Assembly: GCF_021631985.1 (NCBI RefSeq)
Contig: NZ_CP070225.1
Location: 7,874,001 to 7,938,000 of the forward strand
Source of the DNA: Sandaracinus amylolyticus
GTDB lineage: Bacteria; Myxococcota_A; Polyangia; Polyangiales; Sandaracinaceae
Direction: 5' to 3'
Length of the DNA: 64,000 bases
The position numbers and the translations under genes are program-made. Positions 21,111 to 34,312 of this stretch are shown piece by piece. The notes under the pieces were generated by a model. The model was not told the DNA's origin. It searched no databases and saw only the letters and a list, made by a program, of their open reading frames with translations. Numbering within the stretch: position 1 is the first letter of the stretch; each line of letters begins with the position of its first letter.

Positions 21111-22372
21111 TCGAGGATGCGCACGCGCTCGAAGGTCTCGCTCGTCGCTTCGAAACGCCAGAGCTCGTATGCGAGCGTCGCGTTGCCCTCGGCGTCGATG
21201 TCGGAGGGACCGGCCGCGCCTTCGTAGTTGATGGGACGTCCCTCGCGGATGAGGCGCAGGCCTTCGGCGAGGCGGCCCGCCTGCACCACCACGCCCGAGG
21301 GATCGTTGAGCTGGAACACGGCGTCGCGGATCGCGATCGGATCTTCGGCGGTGCCCGCCTTCGCGATCGCGAGTAGCACGAGCGCGGCCGCGTCGTAGAT
21401 GGTCGACGAGAATGCGACCGGATCGTTGCCGAACGTCGCGAAGAACTGGTCGCGGAACCGGTTGTACGCGGGCGTCTCGGGGTCGGTGACCGGCGCGGTG
21501 CCGTAGAAGTCGTCGATCAGCGCGGGGTTGCCGACCTCGGTCGCGAAGCCGGGCTGGCGCACGCCGTCGGTGCCGAACCACGTCACGTCGGGCTTCGACG
21601 AGAGCGAGTCCCAGTCACGCATGATGATGCCGGCCGACGCGGGGTATCCGATCAGCGCGATGCAGTCGGGCGGCGGCTGCGCGGAGGCGATCGCCATCAC
21701 CTGGGTCCGGTACGAGCTGAGCTCTTCCATGTACGGCACGCCCGCCGCGGGCGTGACGGTGCCGCCGAGCGCCGTGAAGCGCGCCGACGCCTGCTCCTGG
21801 AACGGACGACCGTAGTCGTTGTCCGCGAAGAGCACGCTGACGTTGCGGCAGCCCTGCGTGTACATCGCCTCGGCGAGCGCGGGCGCCTGGCGATCGTCGG
21901 GCGGCACGGTGCGGAAGAAGAAGCGATTCGCGGGCTCGAGCTCGCGGTTGATCTCGGTGAGGATCGGCGAGGTCGACAGACCGCTCGCGAGCAGCACCTG
22001 CGCGGGGCCGGTGGCTTCTTGATAGACGCGCACCGTCGCGCTCGACGCGGAGTCGCCGATGATCGCGATCACGCCGTCGTCGATCATGCGTTGCGCGACC
22101 GCGACGCCGATGTCGGCGCGGCTCTCGCCGTCCTGGATCATCAGATCGACACGACGCCCCGGGAGCACGCCGCCCGCGGAGTTCACCTCGCGCACCGCGA
22201 GCCGCGCCGAGTCGCGCCAGTCGGGCCCGTCGGCGCCGAGCTCGCCGGAGAGCGGCGCGATCATGCCGATGCGCACGGTCGCCGTGTCGTCGGTGGAGAG
22301 AGTTCGTTCGGGGGCACACCCGAGGAGCGCGAGCAACAGCGTGGCGAACACCACCAGCGATCTCGCGTTCAT
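21107..22372 (-). CDS. Branched-chain amino-acid-type periplasmic binding lipoprotein
   Basis: A 421-residue type-I periplasmic binding protein (Peripla_BP_6, LivJ/K-like) with a lipoprotein leader ending ALLGC. The domain opens with VRIGMIAPLSGELGADGPDWRDSARLAVREVN and contains LMIQDGESRADIGVAVAQRMI, VIAIIGDSASSATV, and VSVLFADNDYGRPFQEQ. No permease or ABC ATPase gene is present anywhere in the window. Instead it overlaps the stop codon of a Ser/Thr kinase by 4 bp. It may therefore be a ligand sensor rather than a transporter subunit. Confidence 0.88.
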   Translation of the reverse strand: MNARSLVVFATLLLALLGCAPERTLSTDDTATVRIGMIAPLSGELGADGPDWRDSARLAVREVNSAGGVLPGRRVDLMIQDGESRADIGVAVAQRMIDDGVIAIIGDSASSATVRVYQEATGPAQVLLASGLSTSPILTEINRELEPANRFFFRTVPPDDRQAPALAEAMYTQGCRNVSVLFADNDYGRPFQEQASARFTALGGTVTPAAGVPYMEELSSYRTQVMAIASAQPPPDCIALIGYPASAGIIMRDWDSLSSKPDVTWFGTDGVRQPGFATEVGNPALIDDFYGTAPVTDPETPAYNRFRDQFFATFGNDPVAFSSTIYDAAALVLLAIAKAGTAEDPIAIRDAVFQLNDPSGVVVQAGRLAEGLRLIREGRPINYEGAAGPSDIDAEGNATLAYELWRFEATSETFERVRILE

Positions 22373-24306
22373 CGCAGGCCCAACCTCCGCGTCGTGGTCT
22401 CACCGGCCCGGATCTCGACCTCGTAGGTCTCGCTGATCCCGGCTTCGTCGTTCACGAGGCGCAGCACGTGGCGACCCGCAGGAAGTCGCACGCGCACCAG
22501 CGGCGTGGTGCCGAGGTCGCGGCCGTTCAACGAGACGTTCGTCCACGGCGAGGTCACGAGCGAGAGGTGGCCCTCCTCGCCCACGCTCGGCGGCGGCGTG
22601 GTGGTCGGCGGCGTCGCGGTGGTGCTGGTCGTCGTGGTCGCCGCGGTCTCGCCGCCGCGTCCCCCGCGGGTGCGGCGCGATCCGCCGCCGCCGCGCGACG
22701 TGGCGGTGCGCGCGGGCTCGTCGGCGGTCTCGGCCTCGACCGGCGGATCGTCGGCGGGAGGCGGCGTGTCGGCGACGACCGGCGCGATCGGATCCGCCGC
22801 GACCGGGACGATCGGATCGGGCGGCGTCGGCGTCGCGATCGGAGGCACCACGACCGCACCGGTCGAATCGCCCGGCGCGGTCTCGTCGTCGCCACCGCGC
22901 GGCAGCACGACCGCCACCGCGACCGCGAGCAGCGCGACCGCGCCGACGACCACGAGCTGCCAGCCGAGCGCGCGCCGCTTCTGCTCGCGCGGCGCCTCCG
23001 CGGGCTGCGCGAACGCGCCCTGCTGCGAAGGCGCCGAGGGCGTGTACTGGCCCGAGGGCGTGTACTGACCCGAGGGGGTGTACTGACCCGAGCCACCGAA
23101 GGGCGCGGGCGTCGGCGTGACGCTCGTGACCCCGGGCGGAAGGCGCGAGGCGGTCGAGGGCGTCATGTGGGCGAACTGCCCCGAGATGCCGGCGTCGGGC
23201 ATGTTCGTGCCGGGCGAGCTCGGATCGACGAGGCGCTGGATCGAGCTCGCCCCGACCTCGATCGAGGCGAGACAGGCCGCGAGCTTCTCCTTGTGCGCCT
23301 TCTGCACTTCCTCGAAGCGCGTGTGCATCAGCTGCGCGATCGTCGCGCGCGTCGGCGCGTTGGGCTGCGTCGCGAGCCAGCGCTCCAGATCGCCGCGGAA
23401 CTCCTTCGCGCTCTGATAACGCGCCGACACGTCGCGCTGCAGCGCGCGCATCACGATGCCGTCGATCTCGGGCGGCACCGCAGGATTGTGGATGCTGGGC
23501 AGTCGAATCTCGCCCTGCAGCGTCTCCTGCAGCGTCGCGAGCTCGTTGACGCTCTTGAACAGACGCCGCGAGGTCAGCGCCTCCCAGAGCACGACGCCCA
23601 TGCTCCAGAGATCGGCGCGCTGATCGACGTTGTTCGTGAGGGCCTGCTCGGGCGCGATGTACGCGTATTTGCCCTTCACCACGCCGGTGCGCGTCTCGAC
23701 GACGTTCGACTCCGCCTTCGCGATGCCGAAGTCGAGCAGCTTCACCACGCCGTTGTAGGTGACGTAGATGTTCTGCGGGCTGACGTCGCGGTGCACCACG
23801 CCGAGCGCGCGGCCTTCGTAGCTCGTGAGGTCGTGCGCGTAGCCGAGCCCGTCGAGCGCGTCGGCGATCATGCGCGCCGCGAGCGGCACCGGCAGCAGCG
23901 TGCCCATCTGGGCGCTCGATCGGAGCAGCCGCTCGAGGCCCTGGCCGTCGAGGTACTCCATCGCGAGGAAGTGGTGGCCCGAGGCCTCGCCCACCTCGAG
24001 GGTCTGCACGCAGTGCGGGTGATCGAGCTGCGCCGCGAGGCGCGCCTCGTCGAGGAACATGTCGATGAAGCCGGGCTCGGCCTCGAGCTGCTGGTGCAGC
24101 CGCTTGAGCACCACGAGCTTCCGGAAGCCGCCCTTGCCCGCCATCACGGCGAGCAGGACCTCCGCCATGCCGCCGTGCCCGAGCTTGCCGATCAGCGTGT
24201 ACTTGCCGAACGGCTGAGGAGGGATCGCCTGCAGCGTGTAGGCTCGCGTCTCTTCCCCGCTGAGGGTGCCCGAGGCGCGGTTCGAACTGGCTCCAGGGCT
24301 CGTCAT
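22369..24306 (-). CDS. Transmembrane Ser/Thr protein kinase with PEGA domain
   Basis: A 645-residue Hanks-type kinase. The kinase domain (about 34-305) has the Gly loop GHGGMAEV, Lys68, Glu87, HRDVSPQN (172-179, catalytic Asp174), DFG at 192-194 and APE. A disordered linker with three GQYTPS repeats (about 410-430) leads to one TM helix (LVVVGAVALLAVAVAVVL). A Pro/Asp- and Arg/Gly-rich stretch follows, and then a PEGA domain (about 575-640, WTNVSLNGRDLGTTPLVRV) outside the membrane. It is the first gene of a four-gene operon with overlapping start/stop codons. It probably transduces an envelope signal. Confidence 0.93.
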   Translation of the reverse strand: MTSPGASSNRASGTLSGEETRAYTLQAIPPQPFGKYTLIGKLGHGGMAEVLLAVMAGKGGFRKLVVLKRLHQQLEAEPGFIDMFLDEARLAAQLDHPHCVQTLEVGEASGHHFLAMEYLDGQGLERLLRSSAQMGTLLPVPLAARMIADALDGLGYAHDLTSYEGRALGVVHRDVSPQNIYVTYNGVVKLLDFGIAKAESNVVETRTGVVKGKYAYIAPEQALTNNVDQRADLWSMGVVLWEALTSRRLFKSVNELATLQETLQGEIRLPSIHNPAVPPEIDGIVMRALQRDVSARYQSAKEFRGDLERWLATQPNAPTRATIAQLMHTRFEEVQKAHKEKLAACLASIEVGASSIQRLVDPSSPGTNMPDAGISGQFAHMTPSTASRLPPGVTSVTPTPAPFGGSGQYTPSGQYTPSGQYTPSAPSQQGAFAQPAEAPREQKRRALGWQLVVVGAVALLAVAVAVVLPRGGDDETAPGDSTGAVVVPPIATPTPPDPIVPVAADPIAPVVADTPPPADDPPVEAETADEPARTATSRGGGGSRRTRGGRGGETAATTTTSTTATPPTTTPPPSVGEEGHLSLVTSPWTNVSLNGRDLGTTPLVRVRLPAGRHVLRLVNDEAGISETYEVEIRAGETTTRRLGLR

Positions 24307-24521: not shown

Positions 24522-24548
24522 GAGAGTGCCAGTCTGATTGGCACTCTC
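24522..24548. terminator. Hairpin at the 3' end of the amylase gene
   Basis: Perfect 10-bp arms GAGAGTGCCA and TGGCACTCTC flank a 7-nt loop. The right arm touches the stop codon of the amylase gene (stop at 24547-24549, minus strand). It separates the amylase from the divergent upstream region of the kinase operon and probably terminates the ackA-pduL/amylase transcript. Confidence 0.6.
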
Positions 24549-26214
24549 AAGGTGCGAAGAGAACCACCGATTCGCGAGGCGGGATCGCGATCTCCACCGT
24601 TCCGTCGGGCGCGACCTCGAACCTGAGCGCGCCGCCGAGGCGATCCTCGAGCACGGTGCCGGGCGAGAAGCTCGTCGCGACGCGCGCGCTCGACGTCTGC
24701 ACGGGATGGGTGTTGAGCGCGACGAGCACGCGCTCGTCGTCGTGGGCGCGCTCCCACGCGAGCATCCCGGCGTCGGCGGGCGGCGACTCGAGCTCCATGC
24801 CTCCGACCTCGCTCGCGTAGCGCACCACCAGCGCGCCGCGACGCAGCGCGATCGAGCCACGGCGCAGCGCGGCGAGCCGCTGGATCAGCGCGAAGCTCGG
24901 GAGATCTTCGCGGAACCCCGACTCCCACATCACCTCGCGCGCCTCGTGGTGCGAGCGGCCGGAGAACTCCTGCTCGGTCCCGTAGTAGATGCCGGGGATC
25001 GAATCGAGCACGAACATCGCGACCAGCGCTTGATCGACGGCGAACGCGTCGGGCACCTCGGCGCGCACGCGCGGCAGATCGTGGTTGTCGGCGATGGTCA
25101 CCCGCGCCTGCCACGGCGAGAGCCCGATGCCGAAGGGCTGCGGCACGTCGCGGAAGAGCGCGCGGTTCGTCTCGAGCGCGGCGCGCGCGGTGGAGGGCGG
25201 GGCGCCCCCGAGGATCACTCCGTCGATCAGCGTCATCTTCGCGGGGAAGTCGAAGCCCGCGTCGAGCGCGCCTTCCGCGGTGTGGCGCGCGATCTCCGCG
25301 CCGTCGGCCTCGTAGATCTCGCCGAGCAGGAAGAAGCGCCGCTTGCCGTGGGCGTCGAGGCGACGTCGCACTCCGTCGCAGAACGCCTGCCAGAACGGGA
25401 GCTCGACGTGGGGCACCGCGTCGATGCGGAAGCCGTCGACGTCGGTGACGAGCACCCAGTGCACGAACGTCTCGATCATCGCCTCGACGACGTCTTCGCG
25501 CGCGGTGTCGAGATCGCGCAGGCCGGTGGGGAAGTCACCGTAGCGGCGCTCTTCGTAGTCGCCGAGGTCGCCGATGCCGCGCCGATGGAAGTGCTCGCGG
25601 CCGAGCTCGACGATCGCGCCGTCCGCGGCGAAGACGCGCAGGGGCCCGTCGTGCCAGAGGATCGGCGCGTCGTATCCCTCGCGGCGATAGGGCGGCAGGT
25701 CCTCGTCGGGATCGATCGTGCCGTCGTGATCGAGGTCGTACCCGAACACCCGGCCCGCGTGGTTCGTGACGATGTCGACGATCACCACGATGTCGCGGGC
25801 GTGGGCGGCGGCGACCAGCGACTGCAGCTCTTCGAGCGTGCCGAAGCGCGGGTTGTGCGCGGTGAAGTCGCTCGCCCAGTAGCCGTGATAGCCGTCCTCG
25901 CTCTCGATGCGCGGCACGTTGGCGACGATCGGAGAGATCCAGATCGCGCTCATGCCGAGGCGAGCGACGTAGTCGAGGCGCTCCTCGACGCCGCGCCAGT
26001 CGCCGCCCTGCACCCGCGCGAGATCGCCGGGCACCGGTTCGATCCCGTCGGCGTCGTCGTTGCTCGGATCGCCGTTCTCGAAGCGATCGACGAGCACCTG
26101 GTAGATGACGCGATCACGCCAGTCGTCGACGTGGGTCGAGACGCGCGGAGTCGGATCGGGATCACACGCGGCGGCGCAGAGCGCGAGCAGCGCGACGGCA
26201 GATCGCTGGATCAA
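24547..26214 (-). CDS. GH13 alpha-amylase-type lipoprotein
   Basis: A 555-residue glycoside hydrolase of family 13 with a lipoprotein leader ending AAAC (Cys17). The TIM barrel begins DRVIYQVLVDRFENGDP, typical of cyclomaltodextrinase/neopullulanase-like enzymes. Conserved regions are DIVTNHAG (region I), GFRIDAVPHV (nucleophile Asp265), LLGEIYE (acid/base Glu299) and ADNHD (Asp379). The active site looks intact. The TTG start overlaps the stop codon of the acetate kinase fusion gene (TTGA), indicating translational coupling. It should hydrolyse alpha-1,4-glucans at the cell surface or periplasm. Confidence 0.93.
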   Translation of the reverse strand: MIQRSAVALLALCAAACDPDPTPRVSTHVDDWRDRVIYQVLVDRFENGDPSNDDADGIEPVPGDLARVQGGDWRGVEERLDYVARLGMSAIWISPIVANVPRIESEDGYHGYWASDFTAHNPRFGTLEELQSLVAAAHARDIVVIVDIVTNHAGRVFGYDLDHDGTIDPDEDLPPYRREGYDAPILWHDGPLRVFAADGAIVELGREHFHRRGIGDLGDYEERRYGDFPTGLRDLDTAREDVVEAMIETFVHWVLVTDVDGFRIDAVPHVELPFWQAFCDGVRRRLDAHGKRRFFLLGEIYEADGAEIARHTAEGALDAGFDFPAKMTLIDGVILGGAPPSTARAALETNRALFRDVPQPFGIGLSPWQARVTIADNHDLPRVRAEVPDAFAVDQALVAMFVLDSIPGIYYGTEQEFSGRSHHEAREVMWESGFREDLPSFALIQRLAALRRGSIALRRGALVVRYASEVGGMELESPPADAGMLAWERAHDDERVLVALNTHPVQTSSARVATSFSPGTVLEDRLGGALRFEVAPDGTVEIAIPPRESVVLFAP

Positions 26215-28016
26215 CCCTCGCGCGGCTCCTGCACGCCCTCGAACGCGACGACGCTGTCGCTGGTGAGCCCCGCAGCGTTGGCCTCGTCGGTGTCGACGTG
26301 CATGTCGAGCGTGAACTCCGGGTGCACCCGCACGATCACGTCGCCCATCGTCATCTCGCGATCACCGTCGACGCGCACCTTGATGACGTCGCGATCCTGC
26401 ACGCCGAAGTCGCGCGCTTCGTCGGGCGACATGTGCACGTGACGGTGCGCGAGGATCACGCCGCTGGGGATCTCCACCGAGCCCACGGGGCCGCGCAGCG
26501 TGAGGCCGGGCGTGCCCTCGAGCTTGCCCGACTCGCGCAGCGGCGGGCTCACGCCGAGCGTGATGGCGTCGGTGCGCGCCACCTCGACCTGGGTCTGCTT
26601 GCGCAGCGGGTTGATGATCGCGACGCGGCGGACCTCGCCCTTGGGGCCGACGAGATCGACGGTCTCCCGGGTGACGTACTGGCCGGGCTGGGTCACGTCG
26701 CGCTTCTTCGTGAGCTCGTAGCCCGGACCGAAGAGCGCGTCGCAGTCGGCGCGCGAGAGGTGCACGTGGCGCACGCTGACGCCGACCGGGATCGGACGGG
26801 CGCGCACGCTGCGGATGGTCGCGGTCGGACCGACCACGCAGCGCATCACCTCGCGCGCGATAATGCGCTCTTCGTCGGTGCGCACCACGAGCACCTTGGT
26901 GGGGGCGCGGGGCGCGGAGATCTCGACGATGCCGCCGTGATCGGCGGCGCGCTTCGCCTCGTTGGCGCGCTCGTCGAGGGCGACGCCCATGAAGATCAGG
27001 CCCTCGCAGACCTTGCTGCGCACGAGCGCGGAGTTCTCGCCGATGCCGCCGGTGAACACGATCGCGTCGGCGCCGCCGAGCGTCGCGGCGTACGCGCCGA
27101 CGTACTTGCGGAGGCGGTGCACGAACACCTCGATCGCGAGGCGCGCCCGGGGATCGCCGGCTTCCGCGGCGTTCTGGATGTCGCGGAAGTCCGCGCCGAT
27201 GCCCGAGAGACCGGCGAGCCCGGAGCGACGGTTGAGCAGCTCGTCGATGTCGCCCGCGGCCATGCCCTGCTTCGCGAGGAGCATCGGGATCGCGGGATCG
27301 AGATCGCCGGCGCGGGTGCCCATCACCAGGCCCTCGAGGGGCGTCATGCCCATCGAGGTCTCGACCGACACGCCGTGCTCGATCGCGCTGACGCTCGCGC
27401 CGCCGCCGAGGTGACAGGTGATGAGCTTGAGGCGCGAGAGATCGGTCCGGAGGTGCTCGGCGGCCGAGAGCGCCATGTACTGGTGGCTCGGGCCGTGGAA
27501 GCCGTAACGGCGGATGCCCTTCTCGAGATAGAGCTCGTGGGGGATCGCGTAGCTGTAGGCGTGCGGTGGGAGCTGCGCGTGGAACGCGGTGTCGAACACC
27601 GCGACGTGCGGGACCTGGGAGAAGACGGCGCGCGCGGCGCGGATGCCGGCGAGGTTCACCGGGTTGTGGAGCGGCGCGTAGGCGGCGCACTCCTCGATGA
27701 TGCGCTCGGCGCGCTCGTCGACCGGCGTCGGGGTGACCAGCTGCTCGCCGCCGTGCACGACGCGATGACCGACCGCGGCGAGCGCGCTCGGATCGGGCAG
27801 CGGTCCGGCGTCGCGCGTGAGGTGCGCGAGGATCGCGCGCAGCGCGCCGGTGACGTCGCGTCCGTCGATGCGATCGCTGCCGCCCTCGTGGATGTGCGTG
27901 GCGTCCGCGGTGCCGACGCGCTCGACGCGCCCGGCGGCGAGGCGCGCCTCGGTGTCCATCTCGTAGAGGTTGTATTTGACGGAGGTCGATCCGACGTTGA
28001 CGACCAGGACGCGCAT
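26211..28016 (-). CDS. Acetate kinase-PduL phosphotransacylase fusion
   Basis: A 601-residue bifunctional protein. Residues 1-395 are a complete acetate kinase: VLVVNVGSTSVKYNLYEM, HRVVHGGE, FDTAFH (Asp142), RRYGFHGPSHQY, HLGGGASV and FTGGIGENS. Residues about 408-592 form a PduL-type phosphate acyltransferase with the paired metal-binding motifs VRHVHLS (His417, His419) and HRHVHMS (His524, His526, His528), plus INPLRKQTQVEVARTDAI. Together they would convert acetyl-CoA to acetyl phosphate and then to acetate with ATP formation. PduL replaces the usual Pta. No encapsulation peptide or microcompartment genes are nearby. The gene is coupled to a downstream amylase. Confidence 0.95.
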   Translation of the reverse strand: MRVLVVNVGSTSVKYNLYEMDTEARLAAGRVERVGTADATHIHEGGSDRIDGRDVTGALRAILAHLTRDAGPLPDPSALAAVGHRVVHGGEQLVTPTPVDERAERIIEECAAYAPLHNPVNLAGIRAARAVFSQVPHVAVFDTAFHAQLPPHAYSYAIPHELYLEKGIRRYGFHGPSHQYMALSAAEHLRTDLSRLKLITCHLGGGASVSAIEHGVSVETSMGMTPLEGLVMGTRAGDLDPAIPMLLAKQGMAAGDIDELLNRRSGLAGLSGIGADFRDIQNAAEAGDPRARLAIEVFVHRLRKYVGAYAATLGGADAIVFTGGIGENSALVRSKVCEGLIFMGVALDERANEAKRAADHGGIVEISAPRAPTKVLVVRTDEERIIAREVMRCVVGPTATIRSVRARPIPVGVSVRHVHLSRADCDALFGPGYELTKKRDVTQPGQYVTRETVDLVGPKGEVRRVAIINPLRKQTQVEVARTDAITLGVSPPLRESGKLEGTPGLTLRGPVGSVEIPSGVILAHRHVHMSPDEARDFGVQDRDVIKVRVDGDREMTMGDVIVRVHPEFTLDMHVDTDEANAAGLTSDSVVAFEGVQEPREG

Positions 28017-31981: not shown

Positions 31982-34312
31982 CTAGGGGGAGGGCACGTAG
32001 ATGCAGCTCGAGAGCGCCGGCACGCTGCCACCGGTGCAGTTGCCGAGCGCATCGACGTAGCCGCTCGCCGGCGGGGACCACGAGCGCGCGTCGCCGCGGT
32101 TGAGCACCACGTACACGTCCTCCGCGCCCGGATGGGTCACGCGGTACGCCCAGAAATTCGCGTCGACGAGCACGGTCTCGCGACGGCCGCGACGCAGCGC
32201 CTGGTGCTCGGCGCGCGCACGTCCCGCGCGCTGCGCGTTCTGCAGCGAGCGCTGCTCCTCCGCGCTCAGCCCGGTGAAGCGCATGAACGCGCGGTTGTCG
32301 GGGTCCTGCCCGCCGAGCGTGCCGATGTCGTCGCCCTGGTAGAGCATCGGGACGTTGTACGGCGACGTGAAGAGGAACGTCTGTGCGAGCCGCAGTCGCG
32401 CATATCCCTGCGCCGTCGCGCCGCCCGCTTCGGTCAGCGCGCGCCACTGGTCGTGGTTGCCGAAGAAGTTGCCCATGACCGCGCCGGGATAGCCGCCGAC
32501 GCCGCCCATCGTGGGCTGGGGCGAGCGATATGCGCTGTCGTTCCCGATCGCGAAGCCCGCGAGGCTCTGCAGGTTGTCGCCGAACGTCAGCAGCGACGCC
32601 TTCGCGCGGTTGTAATACCCCTCGTCGACCTGGCCCTGCACCATGTCCTCGCGGACGTGGTAGCGCGCCCATCCGCCGAGCGACTCGCCGACCATGTAGA
32701 ACGACGCGGGCTCGAACGGGCGCGCGTGATCGTGCACCGTCGTCTCGACCTGCTCGACGATCGCGGCGCGCAGCTCGCGCGTGAAGACGTCGTCCATGTG
32801 CTTCAGCGCGTCGGCGCGGAAGCCGTCGAAGTCGAACTCCTGGACCATCCAGATCGCGTGCGCGACCACCGCGTCGACGGCCGCGGGATTCCCGCCGTAG
32901 TCGACGTCGGGCATCAGCGACGTGAACCAGCACTCGACGCGAAGACGGTCCCAGTTGTCGTGGCACATCTCGTAGTCGAAGAACCACTCGGGGTGCCGCT
33001 CGTAGATGTTCGCCTCGAATTGCACGTGGTTCGCGACGAAGTCGGGAATCACGCGGATGCCTCGGGCGTGGGCCGCGTTCACCAGCTCGTGCAGCTCCTC
33101 GGGCGTGCCGAACGCAGGCTCGATCGGGTTCGGATACCCGTAGTCGTCGAGGTGCGTGTGGCCCGTCGCGATGGGGTGGTACGAGTGGTAGCTCGAGAAC
33201 TTGCGGGTATCCGCGGGATCGACCGCGGGCTGCGAGCCGTGCGAGTTGAGGATGGGCGAGCTGATCCACAGCGCGTTGATGCCCATGTCGTCGAAGTAGC
33301 CGTCTTCGATGCGCTGGGTGATCCCCGCGAAGTCTCCGCCCTGCCACTGGCTGCGACGATCGGTGACCTGCGCGAGCGTGCCCGCGCTGTTGTCGATGTC
33401 GTTGCCGGGATCGCCGTTGGCGAAGCGGTCGGTGAAGATCTGGTAGACGATGCCGTCGGTCCACGAGAAGCCGGCGTAGCGATAGTCCTCGCCGATCCAG
33501 ATCGGGAGGAAGAGCGGCGTGAGGTTCGCGCCGGTCGTCGTGCGCAGGCGCAGCAGGTAGCTGTACTTGTTGGGTGCGAGATCGCTGCGCGAGATCGTGA
33601 AGGTCTTCGTCTCGGCGTCGTAGGGCAGCTCCACGTCCGCGCCGTTGAGTCGGATCGTGCTTCCTGCGAGGTCGAGCGTCTGCGTGCCGACGTAGGTGAT
33701 CACGACGTCGTAGCCATCCGCCGAGGTCTCGACGCGGTACTCGAGATCACCGACCCGACCTTCGACCGGTCCGGTCGGCACCACGTCGCACACCGAGACG
33801 ACGCTGTTGAACGAGCCGAACGGATCGGGCTCGCGCACGTCGTTCGCGGGATCGAAGATCCACGTCGTCTCGTCGACGATGAACTTGTAGAGGTGACGCC
33901 CGACCGGCTCGACCAGGTGGGTCACGCTCCAGTGCCCGCTGCCGTCGTTCACCAGCTCGAGCGCGCCGGCCTCGGGCGTGCTCGGCCACGTGCCGCTCGC
34001 GTCGGCGAGGAAGCTGCCGCTGAGCCACACGCTCGTCGCGCCGGGACGATCGAGCGTGAACGTGATCTCGTTGCAAGGAGGAGGCGGCGGGCCGGCGTCC
34101 TCCTCGGGCATCGGGACCTCGCCGTCGCCGCACGACGCGTCACCGCTCTGCCCGCCGTCGCCCGCGCAGGATGGCCGGAACGACGGCCCTGGGGACCCAT
34201 CGCGCCGGTAGCCTGGGCCAGCGTCCACGTCGAGCGTCCCGGGGTCGGACGCGCAGGCCGTCGCGACGAGCAGAAGTGAAGCGGTTACTGCGGTGAAACT
34301 GCGGCGCGGCAT
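31982..34312 (-). CDS. GH13 amylase lipoprotein with N-terminal E-set/CBM48-like domain
   Basis: A 776-residue lipoprotein (Cys20). After an Asp/Gly/Pro linker, residues about 80-175 form a carbohydrate-binding E-set domain (TSVWLSGSFLADASGTW, RHLYKFIVDETTWIFDPAN) like AMPK-type CBM48. A second beta domain (about 185-270) precedes the GH13 barrel that begins DGIVYQIFTDRFANGDPGND. Catalytic residues are Asp501 (DGFRADALKH), Glu543 (MVGESLG) and Asp621 (FFGNHDQWR). A C-terminal beta domain ends in a Cys pair. It should act on alpha-glucans outside the cytoplasm. The N-terminal part is longer than in simple amylases. Confidence 0.93.
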   Translation of the reverse strand: MPRRSFTAVTASLLLVATACASDPGTLDVDAGPGYRRDGSPGPSFRPSCAGDGGQSGDASCGDGEVPMPEEDAGPPPPPCNEITFTLDRPGATSVWLSGSFLADASGTWPSTPEAGALELVNDGSGHWSVTHLVEPVGRHLYKFIVDETTWIFDPANDVREPDPFGSFNSVVSVCDVVPTGPVEGRVGDLEYRVETSADGYDVVITYVGTQTLDLAGSTIRLNGADVELPYDAETKTFTISRSDLAPNKYSYLLRLRTTTGANLTPLFLPIWIGEDYRYAGFSWTDGIVYQIFTDRFANGDPGNDIDNSAGTLAQVTDRRSQWQGGDFAGITQRIEDGYFDDMGINALWISSPILNSHGSQPAVDPADTRKFSSYHSYHPIATGHTHLDDYGYPNPIEPAFGTPEELHELVNAAHARGIRVIPDFVANHVQFEANIYERHPEWFFDYEMCHDNWDRLRVECWFTSLMPDVDYGGNPAAVDAVVAHAIWMVQEFDFDGFRADALKHMDDVFTRELRAAIVEQVETTVHDHARPFEPASFYMVGESLGGWARYHVREDMVQGQVDEGYYNRAKASLLTFGDNLQSLAGFAIGNDSAYRSPQPTMGGVGGYPGAVMGNFFGNHDQWRALTEAGGATAQGYARLRLAQTFLFTSPYNVPMLYQGDDIGTLGGQDPDNRAFMRFTGLSAEEQRSLQNAQRAGRARAEHQALRRGRRETVLVDANFWAYRVTHPGAEDVYVVLNRGDARSWSPPASGYVDALGNCTGGSVPALSSCIYVPSP

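Follow-up and report, generated by a model that had tools for sequence, protein, structure and literature searches.

An acetate kinase fused to a PduL phosphotransacylase in Sandaracinus amylolyticus, a widespread architecture in Myxococcota

The locus described here raises the question of whether a single polypeptide carries both consecutive steps between acetyl-CoA and acetate, with PduL in the place of Pta, and what follows from their being joined. Such a protein, an acetate kinase (Ack) fused to a PduL phosphotransacylase, had been proposed in a first-pass annotation of the window, the whole 64,000-nucleotide stretch of Sandaracinus amylolyticus DNA under analysis; the single reading frame and both domain assignments are borne out. 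The open reading frame runs from ATG to TGA through 601 codons with no internal stop. That a frameshift or an assembly artefact has merged two adjacent genes is extremely improbable. Independent genomes carry full-length homologues, at 98% identity within the genus, 82% in another family and 66–68% in others, which excludes a joining artefact, and the recurrence of the architecture in 80 genomes of Myxococcota, and in other phyla, refutes this explanation. The features of the gene and its downstream neighbour are:

26211..28016, minus strand: fusion gene, acetate kinase–PduL phosphotransacylase, 601 aa (uninterrupted ORF, Pfam and NCBIfam matches, full-length homologues)
26832..28016, minus strand: acetate kinase domain, residues 1–395 (Pfam, motifs, fold match to 1g99)
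26799..26831, minus strand: interdomain linker, residues 396–406, predicted to be disordered (pLDDT <50)
26214..26795, minus strand: PduL domain, residues 408–601 (Pfam, zinc ligands, fold match to 5cuo_A)
24547..26214, minus strand: GH13 alpha-amylase-like gene with an apparent lipoprotein signal and a TTG start, downstream of the fusion

The N-terminal half matches PF00871 over residues 3–388 (431.6 bits against a Pfam cut-off of 22) and the ackA model TIGR00016 of NCBIfam (423.9 against 293.4), and its closest solved structures are the acetate kinases 2iir, 1g99 and 1tuu. The kinase motifs read NVGSTSVK (PHOSPHATE1), HLGGGAS (PHOSPHATE2) and GGIGEN (ADENOSINE). The fold and active site are like those of the M. 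thermophila acetate kinase (MtACK; 1G99/1TUU), to which the kinase half is 47% identical. In particular, the MtACK catalytic residues N7, S10, S12, K14, R91, H123, D148, H180, R241 and E384 are all identical in the fusion, which in its own numbering retains R85, H117, D142, H174, R235 and E382. Residues V87, L116 and P226 correspond to MtACK V93, L122 and P232, which have been named as determinants of the acetate pocket (PMC4390882). Overall, 20 of the 21 MtACK positions checked are identical, and the annotated motif set stands with a single departure: Asn211 of PHOSPHATE2 is replaced by Gly205. MtACK is a standalone enzyme with Pta as its partner and has Asn211, whereas the window protein is fused to PduL and has the glycine. 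The residues present suggest that the kinase half is likely to be an active enzyme. It could be slowed by Gly205, since an Asn211Ala substitution lowers the specific activity of MtACK approximately 6-fold, to 145 compared with 883 for the wild type (PMC4390882).

The C-terminal half matches PF06130 over residues 410–584 (245.9 bits against a Pfam cut-off of 25) and the phosphate propanoyltransferase model NF011652 of NCBIfam (253.8 against 209). In a phmmer alignment with the R. palustris PduL (5CUO), residues H48, H50, E109 and H157, H159, H204 correspond to H417, H419, E478 and H526, H528, H573 of the fusion, so that both zinc sites (H, H, E and H, H, H) are complete. The phosphate-binding residues Ser127 and Arg103 correspond to S496 and R472; the residue roles are as given in the description in PMC4784909. 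The PduL histidine motifs noted in the annotation are therefore confirmed, and loss of metal ligands, which would have undermined the assignment, is ruled out by this alignment, with all six kept. The same HHEHHH set is found in 43 of 43 aligned fusion rows. The predicted PduL part and the R. palustris structure share approximately 49% identity in the structural alignment, with an rmsd of 0.8; the R. palustris enzyme is standalone, microcompartment-associated and without a kinase, while that of the window is kinase-fused.

The fusion is very probably bifunctional and cytosolic, catalysing the reversible conversion of acetyl-CoA, Pi and ADP to acetate, CoA and ATP, and serves as the genome's only phosphotransacylase, standing in for Pta. 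In the mechanism that the conserved residues point to, the C-terminal di-zinc PduL, whose metal- and phosphate-binding residues are present, would convert acetyl-CoA to acetyl phosphate (the acyl group may be acetyl or propanoyl). The acetyl phosphate would then phosphorylate ADP at the N-terminal acetate kinase, or the reaction would run in reverse for acetate activation. The short flexible tether would fix a 1:1 stoichiometry and may raise the local concentration of acetyl phosphate.

The composition of the host genome (10.96 Mb, two contigs) agrees with the proposed replacement of Pta by PduL, which is well supported. No Pta is found in the genome: TIGR00651 has no match, and the sole PF01515 match, considered as a possible hidden Pta, is identified as PlsX. 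The fusion is the only PF06130 match. A bona fide Acs is encoded separately. The annotation had also remarked on the lack of microcompartment shell genes and of an encapsulation peptide, and this is the case: the shell protein families PF00936 and PF03319 have no match across the 10.96 Mb, in searches whose controls matched, and the window protein has no encapsulation peptide because its PduL domain is internal, following the kinase. A second AckA, standalone and 360 aa long, is encoded at C1:5737193 among phosphoketolase and FBP-aldolase genes; it would probably consume acetyl phosphate produced by phosphoketolase, and the gene neighbourhood suggests that the two kinases serve different sources of acetyl phosphate. 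This second AckA is short and divergent, and the cluster with phosphoketolase and a class II FBP aldolase (L134:4977-6062 and L134:6785-9280; C1 ~5.737–5.742 Mb) has a LOG-like open frame in between.

The TTG start of the GH13 gene overlaps the stop of the fusion by 4 bases, and the two genes are probably co-transcribed; a scan for promoters and terminators found none. The GH13 gene adjoins the fusion only within the genus (the relative is G178, a single contig of 10,327,335 bases) and is absent around the 82% identical fusion. Since the neighbourhood is not kept beyond the genus, a metabolic link between the fusion and the amylase was rejected, and no functional connection is seen. A second GH13 amylase-like gene lies nearby (window 31982-34312, minus strand), and a Ser/Thr protein kinase with a C-terminal PEGA domain is encoded at 22369-24306 (minus strand).

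The annotation implied that the Ack-PduL architecture is rare, which is not the case. Ack is matched at an E threshold of 1e-30 in 154 of the 284 genomes of Myxococcota sampled, and in 80 of these the match spans both domains. PF06130 is found in 84 genomes and is fused to Ack in the same 80; of the four others, G189 appears to hold a fusion split between contigs, G270 a fragment, and G265 and G077 weak partial matches. A clear extra standalone PduL copy occurs once (G203:C391). With 80 of 84 PF06130 genomes carrying the fusion, the PduL of Myxococcota is essentially an Ack-fused enzyme, and the fusion is its normal form. Of the 80 genomes with the fusion, 10 also encode a true Pta (TIGR00651 above cut-off), compared with 33 of the 74 that have only unfused Ack (Fisher p 1.1e-5, kinship ignored). 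The ten genomes with both count against the reading of the fusion as a stand-in for Pta. Taken over all genomes the contrast disappears (10/80 against 34/204, p 0.47, not significant), and a general exclusion of Pta was rejected; the contrast is therefore read as a replacement of Pta in its role as the partner of Ack, and not as an overall avoidance of Pta.

When genome contigs were searched with the PduL half, Ack-PduL fusions were also found in Bacteroidota, Planctomycetota, Verrucomicrobiota, Nitrospirota, Chloroflexota, Elusimicrobiota, Desulfobacterota and Rhodocyclales, and standalone PduL in Bacillota. The reverse order, PduL-Ack, is found in Brevibacillus migulae (L058:5016-6749), apparently a separate and independent fusion. 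In the Ack tree, the fusions of Ack-PduL order make up one side of a branch (93/89) and fall into three strongly supported groups: that of the window (8 rows), a Myxococcota/Bacteroidota group (27) and a group with an additional N-terminal domain (30). The only row labelled as unfused within the last group is L117, which is cut at a contig end. A quick PduL tree had suggested an independent fusion in the window's clade; a single fused clade, when imposed as a constraint, is likelier, and the PduL domain gives no grounds to reject it (p-AU 0.79). The two domain trees are consistent with long co-inheritance. A single origin of the Ack-PduL-order fusions is suggested tentatively, since the unfused Ack rows in the tree are nearly all from Myxococcota.

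The additional domain is a cyclic-nucleotide-binding (CNB) domain, PF00027, which precedes the kinase and scores 41–67 bits against a cut-off of 27.5. These CNB-Ack-PduL proteins of ~770 aa occur in several phyla, including some Myxococcota (L010, L011). They form a sister clade (e.g. L041, L050, L065) that shares the Ack-PduL order and the side of the branch with the window protein; they differ in the extra ~150 aa of PF00027, which has no match in the window protein, where the sequence begins at the kinase motif. The loci include, among others:

L041:3285-5588, CNB-Ack-PduL
L050:3279-5600, CNB-Ack-PduL
L042:3255-5570, CNB-Ack-PduL
L043:3288-5603, CNB-Ack-PduL
L069:2480-4774, CNB-Ack-PduL
L040:3249-5594, CNB-Ack-PduL

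In the Rhodocyclales branch the kinase loops are changed: PHOSPHATE1, NxGSSSxK, becomes NxG[IVL]xQIH in all members of this type (L042, L044, L045, L046, L047, L048, L056, L057, L061, L063, L082, L083 and L086), with its Asn further replaced by Asp in L046 and L057, while PHOSPHATE2 reads HLGIG and ADENOSINE GDIGET. The PduL zinc ligands are all kept in the aligned members L042, L045 and L063. Altered kinase loops beside intact PduL ligands suggest a kinase half of altered or lost catalysis that may be ligand-controlled, and the CNB-Ack-PduL proteins are candidates for a second-messenger-controlled acetate pathway. Odd phosphate loops are also seen in Nitrospirota (L043/L097) and Anaerolineae (L060), and Rhodocyclus purpureus has two tandem CNB-Ack-PduL genes (L046:603-3101 and L046:3105-5576). 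No published description of this family was found among the open-access papers searched.

These relatives bear on how the window protein should be read. It could be chiefly a phosphotransacylase, with a weak or regulatory kinase half that acts as an acetyl-phosphate-binding, kinase-like domain. The glycine in place of the PHOSPHATE2 Asn, in the HLGGGAS motif common to all aligned rows of the window's clade, and the degenerate kinase loops of some CNB-bearing relatives in which every PduL ligand is kept, lend this reading some weight; however, the whole of PHOSPHATE1 and the six residues from R85 to E382 listed above are intact in the window protein, and a kinase half of this kind appears improbable.

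The bifunctional enzyme could instead hand acetyl phosphate made by PduL straight to the active site of the kinase, with little released, if the two domains are held in a fixed arrangement or lie within an oligomer. The fused enzymes catalyse consecutive steps, fusions arose in both domain orders, and the stretch separating the domain cores is short and of narrow range (12–19 residues among aligned fusions of Ack-PduL order). The AlphaFold2 monomer, built on a 25-row alignment, has a mean pLDDT of 85.8 and a pTM of 0.66. Foldseek aligns its kinase part with 1g99 (TM 0.93 by target length) and its PduL part with 5cuo_A (TM 0.97 by target length, rmsd 0.8). The low confidence of the linker and the pTM mean that no interface between the domains is confidently predicted; the model depicts two ordinary folds joined by a loose linker. 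A sealed channel is not supported by this model of a single chain, which speaks neither for nor against channelling; acetate kinases form homodimers and PduL assembles into oligomers. Weighing these points, direct channelling is possible but rather unlikely.

Neither the fusion nor the channelling idea is new, as both were published in 2016. Erbilgin et al. (PMC4784909) noted multidomain proteins, for the most part annotated as Acks, that bear the PduL signature and have no encapsulation peptide; they suggested that these PduL-Ack proteins may take the place of Pta, and that joining the two enzymes may favour channelling. By that paper's description, they have the same two domains in one frame and lack an encapsulation peptide, as does the window protein, and no difference between them was found. 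Added here are the verification of the active sites, the absence of Pta and shell proteins at genome level, the frequency across the phylum, trees for both domains and a sister group that carries the CNB domain.

In Myxococcota, PduL as a rule comes fused to Ack; the architecture is no oddity, and it leads to the CNB-bearing sister family. We consider it a doubtful but conceivable extension that two acetyl-phosphate pools are kept apart in this organism, one supplied from acetyl-CoA through the tethered PduL-Ack and the other from sugar phosphates through phosphoketolase and AckA, and that the multi-phylum family includes, in its CNB members, a single-protein acetate pathway under second-messenger control. 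Acetyl phosphate is not only a metabolite but also acetylates proteins and acts in signalling, and the fusion offers a clean natural test of whether joining consecutive enzymes of an overflow, ATP-yielding route matters.
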